This document shows, one piece after another, positions 56,675-63,482 of a stretch of 64,000 nt of DNA (its first letter is position 1; every line of letters starts with the position of its first letter). A program made the translations under genes and the position numbers. The notes beneath the pieces were generated by a model. The model was not told the DNA's origin and did no database searches. It was given only the letters and a program-made list of their open reading frames with translations. This DNA is from a bacterium (GTDB lineage: Bacteria > BMS3Abin14): the NCBI GenBank assembly GCA_029210965.1, contig JARGFZ010000001.1:1-64000 (forward strand). Direction: 5' to 3'.

Positions 56675-57883
56675 CTAATCCCCTGGAATGGAGATCGTAG
56701 GGCCCTTATCACTCCACACGATCTGATAGGGGTCTTCAAAAGGGTAGGAGGTGTCAGACTCAAGGATGAAACCGGTCTGGGCCAGATCATCAAGGGAGAG
56801 AGGATAAGACCCCTTCTCCAGCCGGTATGTTTCAAGAGCGAGCATCAGGCGCTGTATCTGGGAATTAACAATAGTCTGCCTGACTGTGATCGCTTTTTCT
56901 GACGTCATCTGGGCAAGGAGGTTGAGTTTGCCGCCGGAGCGGGCAATGGTACTGAAAAGAACGAATATCAGTATGCCCGCGAACAGGAGACCGGACAACA
57001 GGGTAAACACCCCCTTGCGCCTTCGGGTTTCCTGGGCAGTATCCGCAGTTTTGGGAGTTGAAACAGGGATTCTCGTCGGTTTTATCAGGCCGAACCCGAT
57101 CAGGTCCACCAGGGTTTTGGACGCTTCGAAATCTCCAGTAAGAGACCTGTAGGCAATATCCGAAACAGTGAACTGTCCGTTAACCAGATCAAAAACCCGA
57201 TCCTGAACAGCTGACAATACCGTCCTGTCGCTGTCAAAAGGTTTTTGTGGGGTTTCATCCCCCATCATGTCAAAATTAATATTATCCTCATCCGCTGTTT
57301 TCCCGGCGAGCTCAGAATTTCTGACAATCTTCTCTTCCGCTCCCGGGACCTTGCCAAACACGATCTCCATGGAAGGTATCTTGGCTAGTACTCCTGGCCA
57401 TTCGTCAATGATCCTGGCTGCTTCCATGAGGATGTACTCGGCCGGAAGGGGAGAAATGAAATGTCTGTCAAAGGATATCTTTGTCGTGTCGAATTTATAG
57501 GTCCCGCTGCTCCATTGAAAAATCTTGTATAGGGTTTCCTTGATCTGGAAAGCAAGGGCTGCCCTGAACAGATCCTCGGTAAGAAAGTTTTTCTCAGTGA
57601 GGACTACACCAAGCTTCTTTGCGGTCCTCTTTTGCTCCTGCAGACACTCTTCGAGCATTACCATGTCTACAAGACCTGATTTTACAAGGATGTCCCCGAC
57701 ACGCTCTTTCTCGTGGGTTTTGGCAGAACCACTTTCTGCACCAACTACCTTCCCCTCATCGAAAGTGACCGCTACACTCTTCCCCTTGTCCTCGAGGTAA
57801 AGGATCCCTGTCTTTCTCTGGTGAGAGATGAGTTGGAATATGTCGGAAAGACCGAAGTCCCTTAGTGTGCCCTTTAGTGCCAT
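56675..57883 (-). CDS. DUF4388 protein with pseudopilin-like C-terminus
   Basis: 402 residues. DUF4388/PATAN module at the N-terminus (MALKGTLRDFGLSDIFQLISHQRKTGILYLE.., GKVVGAESGSAKTHEKERVGDIL). A hydrophobic segment occupies ~290-312 (GVFTLLSGLLFAGILIFVLF). The last ~60 residues (IQRLMLALETYRLEKGSYPLSLDDLAQTGFI) resemble the globular start of type II secretion pseudopilins such as GspG (..LExYRLDxGxYPxTxxGL). I do not know a characterised protein with this order. It lies between the TPR gene and phoH with 2-4 bp gaps, so it belongs to that operon. Confidence 0.78.
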   Translation of the reverse strand: MALKGTLRDFGLSDIFQLISHQRKTGILYLEDKGKSVAVTFDEGKVVGAESGSAKTHEKERVGDILVKSGLVDMVMLEECLQEQKRTAKKLGVVLTEKNFLTEDLFRAALAFQIKETLYKIFQWSSGTYKFDTTKISFDRHFISPLPAEYILMEAARIIDEWPGVLAKIPSMEIVFGKVPGAEEKIVRNSELAGKTADEDNINFDMMGDETPQKPFDSDRTVLSAVQDRVFDLVNGQFTVSDIAYRSLTGDFEASKTLVDLIGFGLIKPTRIPVSTPKTADTAQETRRRKGVFTLLSGLLFAGILIFVLFSTIARSGGKLNLLAQMTSEKAITVRQTIVNSQIQRLMLALETYRLEKGSYPLSLDDLAQTGFILESDTSYPFEDPYQIVWSDKGPTISIPGD

Positions 57884-57887
57884 GGGA

Positions 57888-59849
57888 TTAATTCTCCTCC
57901 AGCCTGTCGCTCACGTTTTTCAGCGCAAGCAGGTAAAAAGCACCCAGGAGTATCCCGAAGAGAACCTTTGAAAACAGCCCTGCCTGGATATCCAGCAAGG
58001 TCGTGTTCCTGAAAACCCCGTACCACAGGATCCACTTGGTCCAGAACATCACAGATAGTGTAATAAGCACCAGAGACTGCCAACCCACACCCAGGTAGAT
58101 GTGCCCCATCCCCGGGAGTAGAACAGTGGCGACCCTTGAAACAAGTGCCCTTGTCTTTGTGAACCTCAGGATATGCATCATTTTCTTCACACGGCTGGCT
58201 GGATCAACGCCGCTTCTGACGATGAAGATCTGTTTGCACTGGGCACACAGGGCATCGGAACTTGACTGGTTGCACTTGTGGCAATGCATTCTGTTGCATC
58301 GCCGGCACCTTCTCGACAGGTTCATTCTCCCACTGAGGGGCAGCCCAAGGAACAGGATCGCTGCCGACGCCGGAAAAAGTATCCAGGAAAAGGTAAAGGG
58401 GATCATGGGAACGATCCCTGACCACAGGGCTTCCCGCCATTGCCTGCCCTGTTGATCAAGGGAAAGAGCATCCAGCAAATAGCGACTTGCCTCGCCATAG
58501 ATATCCAAAGTAACACGTTGCCCATATTCCTGTTGCAGGGCCATCAGGGAACTTGCCAATTCAGGCGCCCTTTCCTGGGCAATGCGGAATTCTTTCTCAC
58601 CCTCTTCCAGTTGAAGGTTCTCCCTGAGCGCCTGGCTGAGGTTGTAATGGATACGCGGATCGTCTTCATATCTCAGGGCCTGTCTATAATAGTCTATGGC
58701 AGCGTCAACGCGCCCGGTCTGTACCAGTACGTTGCCCAGGTTGTTGATGATGGCGGGTGAATCCGGGGATAGCGCTATGGCTTTAAGAAGATACGATTCC
58801 GCCTCGCGTATGCGACTGGATCTCTTGAGAACAACTCCAAGCACAGAAAGGACCTGACTGTTTTCCGGCTCCTTTACACGCAGCTGGTGCAGATCCTCCA
58901 GAGTTTTTGTCCCTTCACCACCCCTTTCCGCCATGTATATCTGGGAAGGGCGGGAATCAGAATAATAGGCTTCGCTCAGAGCCAGGACATGGATGAGAAG
59001 CGGCAAAGCAGACAAGAAGAGGAGTGCAAGACCGACTGCGATCCTCTCCTGATTCGCGAGGTGCAGCATCATGATCAAAGCGACGAGCAGAACCCAGACG
59101 ACAACCGGTAAGCCGAGAATAACCGCGGCAGCCAGTACGATAGGGATAGCAATAAACCACAGCCACTGAGGGACCTTAATGATATGGGAGAGATCGTGGG
59201 CTATTCGGGGTATTACCCTGGGAGTAAAAAGTAAAATCGTCAGAAGAGAAGATATCGTCATAGCTACCAGGAGCCAGAGAACCACGCCCATACCCCAGGG
59301 GAAGAAAGACCGAAAATCTTTGAAAAAAGTCCCCCACCCTTCCAGGAGAGCATCCAGGGAAGAAAGAGCCCTTAGCTGATTTTGACTCCAGATAGTGCGG
59401 GCTCTTTGAAAATGTGGCCCCGGGTCATCCGGGGCCAGCTCCTTTGCATAGGCGATGATCTTTAAAGCGTCTTCGTAACGCCCCTGTTTCCTTGCCGACG
59501 AAGCTTCCACGAGGAGGGCAGCGGCCGGGTGGAAGAGGTTCGGGATTCCTTTCCTCTTCTTGTGTGCAAGGACCTTTTCAAGACTCTTTTCTGCCTCACT
59601 GAAATTACCGCGCAGAACATTCTGGCGATAGGAGTACCAGTCATCTTCCCAGGGTGCTCGCCATAACTTGGTAGAGGTGCCACCCTGGCTGAGCTGGGCC
59701 GTTGTATCCGACTCAGGCGCCTTAATATCCAGCACCTCTGAAAGGGGGAAATCAACGGTAATTTCACTGACCTCTATGGCCAGTGCGGGGTTTGCCAGAA
59801 AGACCGCGCATAAAAGCAGAGGAAGGACGAGGATTTTGAATTTGGTCAT
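57888..59849 (-). CDS. Secreted/membrane TPR protein with zinc ribbon
   Basis: 653 residues from Met 59849 (frame open to 59885, overlapping the upstream stop). A signal peptide (MTKFKILVLPLLLCAVFLANPALA) is followed by a helical region and several membrane segments (~190-300). TPR repeats fill ~325-430 (SSRIREAESYLLKAIALSPDSPAIINNLGNVL, GRVDAAIDYYRQALRYEDDPRIHYNLSQAL). Then a membrane segment, a Cys-rich ribbon (CRRCNRMHCHKCNQ..CAQC) and a TM2/DUF5683-like C-terminus (LPGMGHIYLGVGWQSLVLI). The architecture is complex; no function is assigned. It is probably co-transcribed with the DUF4388 gene. Confidence 0.8.
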   Translation of the reverse strand: MTKFKILVLPLLLCAVFLANPALAIEVSEITVDFPLSEVLDIKAPESDTTAQLSQGGTSTKLWRAPWEDDWYSYRQNVLRGNFSEAEKSLEKVLAHKKRKGIPNLFHPAAALLVEASSARKQGRYEDALKIIAYAKELAPDDPGPHFQRARTIWSQNQLRALSSLDALLEGWGTFFKDFRSFFPWGMGVVLWLLVAMTISSLLTILLFTPRVIPRIAHDLSHIIKVPQWLWFIAIPIVLAAAVILGLPVVVWVLLVALIMMLHLANQERIAVGLALLFLSALPLLIHVLALSEAYYSDSRPSQIYMAERGGEGTKTLEDLHQLRVKEPENSQVLSVLGVVLKRSSRIREAESYLLKAIALSPDSPAIINNLGNVLVQTGRVDAAIDYYRQALRYEDDPRIHYNLSQALRENLQLEEGEKEFRIAQERAPELASSLMALQQEYGQRVTLDIYGEASRYLLDALSLDQQGRQWREALWSGIVPMIPFTFSWILFPASAAILFLGLPLSGRMNLSRRCRRCNRMHCHKCNQSSSDALCAQCKQIFIVRSGVDPASRVKKMMHILRFTKTRALVSRVATVLLPGMGHIYLGVGWQSLVLITLSVMFWTKWILWYGVFRNTTLLDIQAGLFSKVLFGILLGAFYLLALKNVSDRLEEN

Positions 59850-59862
59850 CAGGATCCGAACC

Positions 59863-60279
59863 CTAGTCTTTCTTTTTGACGGCATCGAGATATTTCCATT
59901 TCAGCTCGGCCGAGACGTTCTCCAGCAGCTTACTCTCCTCCTCTGAAAGGTTCCCCTCGGTTTTCACCCGGAGGACATCGATAATATCGATGGTCTGCTG
60001 AGCGGATACAAGGTTAGGGTCCATGGCCCCCGTTATGGGGTCCGCCATTTCACCTAACTGAATAAGGGCAGAGCTGAAAAGGGAAAAGATAAATGTTGGG
60101 AAATCGACTTTGAGAGTTTCTCCGGGACGATCGGCTTTGGCAGGCTGCCCTTCTTCCCCCTCATCGTCAATGGGACCATCTCGGGATTCCGGCGGGTTAT
60201 TCTCGTCACCTTCGGTAACGGATGAAGTGCGGCGGTCCTCTACTTTGAATTCCTTTTCCTTCTTCTCATCGTCTGTCAT
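59863..60279 (-). CDS. DUF1844 protein
   Basis: 138 residues. The first ~60 are acidic and of low complexity (..EEGQPAKADRPGETLK). The DUF1844 domain follows (VDFPTFIFSLFSSALIQLGEMADP..AQQTIDIIDVLRVKTEGNLSEEE). Conserved and uncharacterised, often near housekeeping genes in deltaproteobacteria and related phyla. AAGGAG lies 7 bp before the ATG. Confidence 0.85.
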   Translation of the reverse strand: MTDDEKKEKEFKVEDRRTSSVTEGDENNPPESRDGPIDDEGEEGQPAKADRPGETLKVDFPTFIFSLFSSALIQLGEMADPITGAMDPNLVSAQQTIDIIDVLRVKTEGNLSEEESKLLENVSAELKWKYLDAVKKKD

Positions 60280-60522
60280 GAATTACTCCTTTAACCTCCG
60301 GCAAACGATCCAGCCAGAGCGGAAACAGACTCTCTATATCCGGAAGGGTTCCCGTTCCCCTGAAGACAGGCATAGAATCCTGCTCCTCATCCGGTTGAAT
60401 ATACCAATTTCGTCCGGTAAGTGGCAAGGCAGGAAAAACAGTATGGGGGTGCGGAGGTATGGGTGTGGTGGAATAAACCCCATGACGATCTTGCACCCTT
60501 ACACCCAAACTCCCAAACTCCC
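60280..60522. other. Gap with word repeats, possible small ORF
   Basis: An 80-codon minus-strand frame covers 60266-60508. Its first third comes from word repeats (CACCCTTACACCCAAACTCCC at 60497-60517 and its inverse theme near 60440). The last 35 residues (from Met 60373, MPVFRGTGTLPDIESLFPLW..) look more protein-like, but I recognise no family and see no ribosome binding site. Not called as a gene. Confidence 0.35.
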
Positions 60523-61725
60523 TTACTGTCCTTTCCCTTCTATCTCTTCCAGGGTCCTGATGATTGCGTTCATGCCCGGGTCATCGTTGATGTTGTGAAC
60601 GTCGATGTACCGGATAATCCCCTTTTTGTCGATGACGAATATAGCCCTTTCCGCAACACCTTCAGACCTGAGCACATCGTATTTGAGCGAGGTATGACCA
60701 TGGGGCCAGAAATCACTCAGGACAGGAAAGGAAACGTTGATCCCCTTGGCCCAGGCTTTGAGGCTCGGGAGGTTGTCTGTAAGCACACCCAGAACCTGGG
60801 TATCAAGCTGAACGAAGAGATCCTTGAGCTCTTCGTAAGCAGCAAGCTGACCCGTTCAGACAGGTGTGAACGCTGCCGGCAGAAAACTGAGCAGTACATT
60901 CTTTTTTCCCCTGTAATCGCTAAGGGTTACCCTGCTATCCTCAACGCTTGTAAGGGTAAAATCAGGCGCCTGTTCACCAACTTTCGGTTCGTTGGTAGGC
61001 TTCCCATCCGGGACGCTTACGTACAGAGGAACTTTCCCCTGCCCGAAAACCTTGCTCTCGGCATAAGCACCGGATGGTGCCAAAGCCTTCGAAAGAATTT
61101 CTAATATTGATGAGCGAACCTTGCGCTGACTGCTTTGGCTCAGGGCTTCCTCGATGATCTTCCGGTAATTCTCGTAGGGCTGTGCACCTTTTATGATGCG
61201 ACCATTAATAATAATGGTGGGAGTGCTCCAGACATCCAGTTCATGGACCTTGTCGAGGTTCTTCTGAAGTTCCGGCAAGTGTGTCTGGTCATCCATGCTC
61301 TTTTTAAATCTGGCCATGTCAAGACCCAGTTCACGTGCCAGTTCATCCAGAGATGGTCTGTCCAGTTCAGGAGCTTTTTCAAAAAGCAGGTCGTGCATTT
61401 CCCAGAACTTCCCCTGGTCCCAGGCCGCCCAGGCGGCAAGGGCAGCGTTACTTGAATCGTGAGAGTATTTTCTCATATAGGGAACCAGCACAAACCGGAC
61501 TTTTCCCTCAAACTCCTCTTGCAGTTTTTTGAAGGTCGGACCGACCTCCTTGCAGAAAGGTCACATGAAATCCGCGATCTCGATAATTGTCACCGGTGCA
61601 TTATCGGGCCCCTTGCTTGGAGCCCGCACCGGTTCGAATTTCACAGTTTCCGCCGATATGGCCGCGGGAACTGAAAACATGGACGCCACAGCTAACAGCA
61701 GCGTCAGAACAATAAACCTTTTCAT
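60523..61725 (-). CDS. Secreted DsbA-like/peroxiredoxin fusion selenoprotein with two Sec (UGA) codons
   Basis: From ATG at 61725 (AAAGGGG 8 bp upstream) one frame of 401 codons runs to TAA at 60523, interrupted only by two TGAs. Residues 1-25 are a signal peptide (..VPAAISA). Residues ~26-225 are a DsbA/thioredoxin-like domain: IIEIADFM-TGA-PFCKEVGP, so TGA55 is the first Cys of CxxC and Cys58 the second; the cis-Pro loop is WSTPTIIING. Residues ~255-400 are a peroxiredoxin: GEQAPDFTLTSVED.., FLPAAFTPV-TGA-TGQLAAYEELKDL.., so TGA290 is the peroxidatic Cys. No other Cys occurs. Both TGAs fall on catalytic positions, which strongly supports selenocysteine. Likely a periplasmic peroxidase with its own electron-transfer domain. 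Routine annotation would split it into two or three truncated ORFs. Confidence 0.9.
61531..61563 (-). promoter_or_regulatory. SECIS-like hairpin after Sec55
   Basis: After the TGA (61563-61561) come 18 nt, then a 5-nt apical loop GGUCC (61542-61538) closed by a 7-bp stem (GGAGGUC with GACCUUC, one G-U pair). Bacterial SECIS elements lie just 3' of UGA with GG/GU in the apical loop; the E. coli fdhF loop is GGUCU at a similar distance (from memory). Confidence 0.65.
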
Positions 61726-62000
61726 GTCGGCAACCCCTTTCCGTCTGGTTATACAGTTGAAAGGACTTTCATACAGTCTGTATTATTATACATCAGTACT
61801 AATTTTGATATCAAAAGGTAAAAAATCCCGATATCGGAATTTTTTCAGGTTTCAGCTTTCAGGTGTCGGATACAAGTGATCACGGGCCACTGATTACTTC
61901 ACTTTGAGATCTGAGATTTGAGATGTGAGATCGAAATTTGGAATTTCCTCCCTTCTCTGGCATACTGATTTCAATAATTTTACCTGGAGGTTATGAGACA
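61726..62000. other. Divergent gap between selenoprotein gene and mazG
   Basis: Holds both upstream regions. AT-rich sequence lies at 61745-61850. The word repeat GAGATCTGAGATTTGAGATG is at about 61907-61927. No clear paired -35/-10 boxes were found by eye. Confidence 0.4.
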
Positions 62001-62798
62001 GTGACTGTCACAAAACGACCCATTGATGAACTTCTCGAGATCATGACGATACTCAGAGGGCCTGAAGGCTGCCCGTGGGACAAAGGGCAGACCCACGAAT
62101 CACTGAAGCCCTACGTCGTGGAGGAAGCTTATGAACTGGTGGAAGCGGTGGAAGGAGGTCAGAACGGCGAGATCAAGGAAGAGCTTGGTGACCTTCTGCT
62201 CCAGATTATTTTCCACAGCCAGATAGCCGCGGAAGCCGGCAGATTTGACTTCGATGACGTAGTCCAGGGGATCATCGAAAAGCTCCTGCGGCGCCATCCC
62301 CATGTTTTTGGCGGGGAAAGGGCCGCCAATGAAGCGGAGGCTCTTCACAACTGGGAGCGTATTAAAGCTGAAACGGAAGGGAAAAAGAAAACAAAAAGGC
62401 ACCCGGGCACCCCTATCCTCCACCGCGCGCTGCGAATGCAGGAAAAGGCAGTGAGTTTCGGCTTCGACTGGGAGGAGACATCCCAACTGTTCGAGAAGTT
62501 GGAAGAGGAGATCACAGAAGTACAAGAGGCCGTCGCCAGTGGCAACCGTGAGGAGATCACCGAGGAGATAGGCGACCTGCTGTTTATGGCGGTCAACTTG
62601 TCCCGCTACCTCGATATCCATCCCGAGGACGCACTGGAAAGGTCCATGAACAAGTTCACCAAACGGTTTCGATCTATGGAAGAAATGGCCGCATTGGATA
62701 ACCGGCCCCTTGAGGATATGGAGCTTGGCGAGATGGAGAAGTATTGGGAAAGAGCAAAAATTCAGAATGCAGGACGCAGAACGCAGAACACAGAATGA
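62001..62798 (+). CDS. mazG: Nucleoside triphosphate pyrophosphohydrolase
   Basis: 265 residues from GTG 62001, with GGAGG 10 bp upstream; the frame is open to 61938 but without support. Two MazG domains: LLEIMTILRGPEGCPWDKGQTHESLKPYVVEEAYEL (EExxE metal motif) and FEKLEEEITEVQEAVASGNREEITEEIGDLLFMAVNL. Hydrolyses (d)NTPs, in E. coli also affecting ppGpp. The last residues (KIQNAGRRTQNTE) are encoded by an intergenic-type CAGAACGCAGAACACAG word repeat, so the natural C-terminus has been replaced or extended. Confidence 0.95.
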   Translation: MTVTKRPIDELLEIMTILRGPEGCPWDKGQTHESLKPYVVEEAYELVEAVEGGQNGEIKEELGDLLLQIIFHSQIAAEAGRFDFDDVVQGIIEKLLRRHPHVFGGERAANEAEALHNWERIKAETEGKKKTKRHPGTPILHRALRMQEKAVSFGFDWEETSQLFEKLEEEITEVQEAVASGNREEITEEIGDLLFMAVNLSRYLDIHPEDALERSMNKFTKRFRSMEEMAALDNRPLEDMELGEMEKYWERAKIQNAGRRTQNTE

Positions 62799-62891
62799 GA
62801 ACAAAAGCGGATAGCCGATCATTTTGAATCTCGAATCCATTTTGAGAACTGAAATTTGAGGTTTGAGATTCGTTTTAACCGGGAGAAAAAA

Positions 62892-63482
62892 ATGAAAAAA
62901 ACAGATCTTCTGACGCTTGTACTGATCTTTGCTTTCACCATCGCACCTACTACACTACTGGCAGGTGAACTTGCCGGGGTTACCCTGGACAACACCCTCC
63001 GGATCGGAGGGGATACCGTTACTCTGGCAGGGATGGGGATCAGGACCAAAACTTTTCTCAAGGTCAAAGTCTATGTTGCAGGCCTGTACATGAAAAACCG
63101 GTCCAACGACCCAGCTGCTGTTATAGGATCGGAGCAGGCCAAGGCCATTGTAATGAGCTTCCTGTACAAAGAGGTTGAAGGAGAAAAGCTGCAGGAAAGC
63201 TGGCGCGAGGGATTTGAAGCCAATACTCCATCAGCCGGGCCGGAGCTGAAAAAACAAATGGACCAATTCGTATCCCTTTTTTCAGCATCGGCCATGGAAG
63301 GTGATAAATATATCTTCGCCTATGAACCCGGTATCGGTACAACAGTCAACCTCAAGGGCGACATTAAGGCAACAATTCCGGGAGCGGATTTTGCCAGCGC
63401 TCTCATGGCCATTTGGTTTGGTGACAAGCTGGGGGACGGAGGGTTGAAGACCCTGAAAAAAGACCTACTCAAGGGCATTTAA
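62892..63482 (+). CDS. Secreted chalcone-isomerase-like protein
   Basis: 196 residues. Signal peptide (MKKTDLLTLVLIFAFTIAPTTLLA), then a chalcone isomerase-like fold: GVTLDNTLRIGGDTVTLAGMGIRTKTFLKVKVYVAGLYM, ..KAIVMSFLYKEVEGEKLQESWREGFEAN and FASALMAIWFGDKLGD. Bacterial members are periplasmic, probably fatty-acid or ligand binding rather than flavonoid enzymes. GGGAG lies 6 bp before the ATG; the open frame upstream lacks a site. Confidence 0.88.
   Translation: MKKTDLLTLVLIFAFTIAPTTLLAGELAGVTLDNTLRIGGDTVTLAGMGIRTKTFLKVKVYVAGLYMKNRSNDPAAVIGSEQAKAIVMSFLYKEVEGEKLQESWREGFEANTPSAGPELKKQMDQFVSLFSASAMEGDKYIFAYEPGIGTTVNLKGDIKATIPGADFASALMAIWFGDKLGDGGLKTLKKDLLKGI

Follow-up and report, generated by a model that had tools for sequence, protein, structure and literature searches.

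How can a gene whose reading frame is broken by two TGA codons encode one redox protein, and what would such a protein do? The gene in question lies within the 64,000-nucleotide stretch of DNA analysed here (the window), at 60523..61725 on the minus strand (as do all features of the gene given below), with an ATG at 61725 and a TAA at 60525-60523; the gene was absent from translations of the plus strand over the same interval. The earlier note, which gave no strand, described a single frame with two selenocysteines, and on the minus strand that frame was recovered: it spans 400 amino acids, interrupted between ATG and TAA solely by TGA at codon 55 (61561..61563; FMUPFC), the first position of a UxxC motif, and at codon 290 (60856..60858; FTPVUTGQ), the peroxidatic position of a PxxxTxxU motif (PAAFTPVU). 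Cys58 (61552..61554) is the only cysteine of the chain, and U55, C58, and U290 are the only chalcogens of its mature form. An annotation made with the standard code would end the protein at codon 55. Residues 1-25 (61651..61725; MKRFIVLTLLLAVASMFSVPAAISA), as read from the translated sequence, resemble a signal peptide, with a positive start, a hydrophobic stretch, and an AxA-like end that were alike in all 8 orthologues. The protein is apparently exported; the periplasmic location proposed earlier agrees with this N-terminus, export itself being predicted from sequence.

The note's description of a DsbA-like domain fused to a peroxiredoxin was borne out by Pfam matches to both domains, each well over its cut-off. 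Residues 39-193 (61147..61611) form a DsbA/BdbD-like thioredoxin-fold domain (PF13462/PF01323, Thioredoxin_4/DSBA; BdbD by sequence and fold), residues 200-246 (60988..61128) form an interdomain linker, and residues 248-388 (60562..60984) form an AhpE-type peroxiredoxin domain (PF00578/PF08534, AhpC-TSA/Redoxin; AhpE the best match by sequence and fold). A first structure model, based on 8 closely related sequences, was of low quality (pLDDT 62); AlphaFold2 with a 47-sequence alignment gave a mean pLDDT of 86.5 and a pTM of 0.79, and only residues 213-241, within the linker, fell below a pLDDT of 50. In the AlphaFold2 model, Sec55 immediately precedes a helix (residues 56–71) and Sec290 sits near the start of another (288–299).

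A profile comparison of residues 243-378 with the PDB gave AhpE as the top match (E 5e-34), and by fold the C-terminal domain again matched AhpE (5c04/4x0x; TM 0.89, 38% identity), as did all of its best 12 matches. The active-site motif PxxxT/SxxC is present as PAAFTPVU or PAAFTPTU, with selenocysteine replacing cysteine. The domain carries a single chalcogen in all 11 fusions described below, i.e., it has no resolving cysteine, as the note had stated. In these respects (a PxxxTxxC-type motif, a domain without a resolving cysteine, the fold itself) it resembles AhpE of Mycobacterium tuberculosis (Rv2238c); it differs in its selenocysteine, apparent export, and attached DsbA-like domain. AhpE stands alone as a 1-Cys peroxiredoxin, and its sulfenic acid is reduced by a second protein, mycoredoxin-1, either directly or once it has been mycothiolated (PMC4360819).

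The N-terminal domain matched BdbD by fold (TM 0.79 on the target, with the earlier 8-sequence model). It is a thioredoxin fold with a helical insertion, has an invariant loop (T168, P169, T170), and carries its CxxC motif as UxxC. The fold, the insertion, and a two-chalcogen xPxC-type site are common to BdbD of Bacillus subtilis and the ScsC-type DsbA-like proteins, from which the fusion differs by selenocysteine in its UPFC site, by the peroxiredoxin that follows, and by a source genome in which neither DsbB nor VKOR was found. Its best NCBIfam match was the Rcas_1661 thioredoxin-like (seleno)lipoprotein model (NF041057; E 1.5e-27), limited to the DsbA-like domain and below the cut-off (96.8 bits versus 190). 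Near the same model, also below its cut-off, is a second family of Sec-containing DsbA-like proteins (FQUPYC) found in many genomes of the family (G000:C29:1459-1950, L082; L073-L077, L083, L024). Four single open frames (L100, L101, L102, L111) had three successive DsbA-like domain matches each.

A six-frame search of 98 genomes located the full-length fusion in 7 further genomes, all in the same family and all with exactly two TGAs. In the codon alignment both TGA columns were TGA in 8 of 8 sequences, at the same positions throughout, and Cys58 was TGC in all 8; pairwise protein identity ranged from 58–95%. The phylum, uncultured and little known, is represented in the genome set by this one family of 12 genomes, 8 of which carry the fusion. 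Purifying selection was strong in every segment: between the source genome and one relative (G000 and G002), dN/dS was 0.22/1.34 before, 0.19/3.4 between, and 0.045/1.8 after the TGAs. Homologues do not stop at these codons, since coding conservation continues past both in all 8. Nor is TGA generally recoded, because it ends 12 of the 29 long, non-overlapping open reading frames in the window, where it is the commonest stop of long frames; we rejected general recoding on this ground. Two of the orthologues (G003 and G007) themselves end in TGA.

The machinery for selenocysteine insertion was present, as the note had asked to be checked: selA, selB, selC, and selD were all found in the source genome (99% complete), with selB on the fusion's own contig and a tRNA-Sec gene (selC) with anticodon TCA (UCA in RNA). 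The selD gene has one in-frame TGA of its own, and tRNA-Sec scored over the cut-off in 11 of the 12 family genomes. From conservation and machinery together, we infer that both UGAs are read as selenocysteine.

RNA structure supports this reading at the first site. A SECIS-like hairpin, GGAGGUCG-GUC-CGACCUUC (61531..61549), begins 11 nt past the first TGA; its 8 bp stem is conserved in the orthologues (63 of 64 pair cells form) and the first base of its loop is G. In one orthologue (G008) both sides of one pair had changed, G-C to A-U, with residues GP replaced by SL. Under a rule for bacterial SECIS elements (loop at a distance of 13–37 nt, G among the first two loop bases), the hairpin ranked 8 among 344 columns, and a SECIS after Sec55 is thus supported by sequence. 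The hairpin after Sec290 (60807..60840) is a weaker candidate SECIS put forward by its energy rank, which was 8 among 344 columns without the loop-G rule and 126 among 344 with it. When RNAalifold was applied to the whole gene, the site-55 hairpin was among the more stable conserved ones and site 290 was not singled out. Searches of Rfam at gathering and at permissive thresholds gave zero SECIS family matches. A control search in the family's other Sec genes was not taken as proof, since its motif filter missed selD and returned mainly DsbA-like proteins.

Homologues with cysteine at both sites, which the note had proposed to look for, do exist. When 386 genomes were searched with a profile, one additional full-length fusion came up, free of internal stops, in a different phylum (G325); two relatives of that genome (G389 and G388) encode it as well. 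In all three, cysteine stands at both Sec positions, at the partner position of the CxxC motif, and nowhere else (positions 53/56/284, 60/63/291, and 59/62/293). The pattern of U/C-x-x-C plus one further U/C is thereby present in the mature chains of all 11 fusions; no mixed Sec/Cys fusion occurred among them. Trees of both domains placed the Sec and Cys fusions near one another. The two groups were joined weakly in the DsbA tree (80/22), and in the peroxiredoxin tree the standalone Cys peroxiredoxins of G034 and G237 stood beside the Cys fusions (99/96), so a single shared fusion event is possible. A peroxiredoxin in another genome (G040) was considered as a partial fusion and rejected, as it lies behind an unrelated open reading frame.

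Both domains also occur alone in selenocysteine form in other families. Standalone Sec peroxiredoxins were found in four genomes (G109, G375, G186, and G364; L092, L093, L097, and L103), with motifs PAAFTKVU, PASFTPVU, and LDWTPVU; a fifth genome encodes a Sec DsbA-like protein on its own (L094, in G134). Such proteins are likely the building blocks of the fusion. Elsewhere the two functions adjoin as separate genes, with a DsbA-family gene coming immediately after a redoxin gene. Such pairs lie on plasmids of Halocatena (a haloarchaeon), Bosea (an alphaproteobacterium), and Granulicella (an acidobacterium) (L112 2932-4028, L113 2965-3995, L114 2983-3991), and the same order is seen in G072 (L069). 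These pairs are Cys forms with more distant domains, in reversed order relative to the fusion, but they link the two activities independently of it, and the two-gene unit is possibly a general redox pair.

Starting from a fusion and a selenoprotein that are evident from the sequence, we infer the export and the electron route. The fusion is probably an exported double selenoprotein in which peroxide oxidises Sec290 and the fused Sec55-x-x-Cys58 site reduces it. SelB and tRNA-Sec would decode both UGAs as selenocysteine. Sec290 in the AhpE-type domain would then attack peroxide, yielding a selenenic acid. The Sec55-x-x-Cys58 site would bond to Sec290 through Se-Se or Se-S; once Sec290 was released, Sec55 and Cys58 would be left joined to each other as a selenenylsulfide. 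Reduction of this pair would fall to an external reductant, perhaps a membrane protein of the DsbD/CcdA kind in genomes that have one. The fusion would on this account be a periplasmic peroxidase with its own reductase domain, the DsbA-like domain standing in for the outside redoxin of AhpE. Because the peroxiredoxin domain lacks a resolving cysteine, Sec55-x-x-Cys58 is the nearest partner of Sec290 in the same chain. The account is favoured by the three-chalcogen mature chain kept in all 11 fusions, by the reduction of the nearest peroxiredoxin relative, AhpE, by an outside thioredoxin-fold protein, by the adjoining redoxin and DsbA-family genes seen elsewhere, and by a DsbD_2 protein in four genomes (G000, G001, G002, and G009). 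We are less sure of it because the model has low confidence in the linker, because no DsbD_TM, DsbD_2, VKOR, or DsbB match was found in G003, a complete genome that has the fusion, and because the site-290 SECIS is weak under the loop-G rule. The note's term "self-contained" went too far, since electrons would still be required from outside.

Electrons might instead run the other way, with Sec290, oxidised by peroxide, oxidising the fused DsbA-like site, which would make disulfides in exported proteins. We regard this as unlikely, though a serious contender. BdbD, the nearest match of the N-terminal domain, is itself a disulfide-forming protein, and DsbB was absent from all 12 family genomes. 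VKOR gave a weak hint in the same direction: of the 8 fusion carriers only one has it (G009), against 3 of the 4 genomes that lack the fusion, a contrast with a one-sided Fisher probability of ~0.07, calculated by hand, that ignores relatedness and genome gaps in a set where some genomes are incomplete. That pattern is itself weakened by the few and partly incomplete genomes, and by G009, which has both the fusion and VKOR. Selenocysteine in a UxxC motif usually yields a more reducing pair than cysteine, which suits reduction better than disulfide formation, and the source genome has a DsbD_2 protein. In the endoplasmic reticulum of eukaryotes, it is established that peroxide reduction can be coupled to the making of disulfides (PMC3824332); peroxiredoxin 4 or GPx7 with PDI offers the likeness there. 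The fuller version, a one-chain, peroxide-powered disulfide generator that replaces DsbB/VKOR where these are absent, as a bacterial counterpart of peroxiredoxin 4 and PDI, we consider slightly more doubtful still.

It is improbable that the two domains are independent selenoenzymes, each with its own outside partner (the DsbA-like domain as a reductase or isomerase), that the fusion merely co-localises. The occurrence of Sec forms of both domains on their own and the low-confidence linker are in keeping with such independence; the peroxiredoxin domain without a resolving cysteine, the three-chalcogen pattern that Sec and Cys fusions share without exception, and the adjoining of both functions as separate genes elsewhere stand against it.

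The locus itself bears on the last alternative, a decayed or mis-sequenced gene. In the family, the order mazG, fusion, DUF1844, TPR protein, DUF4388 is conserved (56675-63482 in the window), with the last three following the fusion and mazG on its opposite side; DUF1844, TPR, and DUF4388 were seen in this order in relatives with available flanks, and mazG where the flank reached far enough. One family genome (L070 1560-1810; G010:C27) has, between mazG and DUF1844, a fusion remnant with an early TAA and neither the DsbA part nor the Sec290 region, while mazG, DUF1844, and the TPR gene are kept around it; fusion loss therefore does occur in the family. Even with that plainly decayed copy at the corresponding locus, the idea that the TGAs are true stops or assembly errors is close to refuted and deserves almost no weight, given both TGAs in 8 of 8 separate assemblies, their exact placement on redox positions, strong purifying selection downstream, cysteine at both sites in homologues, and a complete sel gene set.

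The DsbA-like (UxxC) and peroxiredoxin (TxxU) proteins are separate selenoprotein families in published accounts of the prokaryotic selenoproteome (table in PMC13188914; PMC1794560; PMC2398784). Each domain of the fusion has its selenocysteine at the same position as the corresponding family; unlike those families, both domains are in one protein with selenocysteine at both sites. No DsbA–peroxiredoxin double selenoprotein appears in the available part of the 2026 review table of prokaryotic selenoproteins (PMC13188914), and neither the fusion nor selenocysteine at both sites appears in PMC1794560 or PMC2398784; a marine survey of fusion selenoproteins lists other fusions. The other multi-Sec fusions named in the review, HUGP/GUXX-star, arsenite methyltransferase/AhpD, and the rhodanese/DsbD-like TsoB (PMC13188914), likewise have more than one part and more than one selenocysteine, and their domain combinations are unrelated to this one. 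NCBIfam has no model that matches the double-Sec fusion. The protein thus appears to be undescribed in the openly searchable literature, in line with the note.

Two separately known selenoprotein domains are here joined in one apparently exported enzyme with a redox inventory of three chalcogens. The natural Cys/Cys series in another phylum would allow a test of what selenocysteine contributes at the peroxidatic and resolving sites of one protein, and the Sec and Cys fusions together would allow a test of which way a peroxiredoxin and a DsbA-like domain pass electrons to each other when they work outside the cytoplasm.
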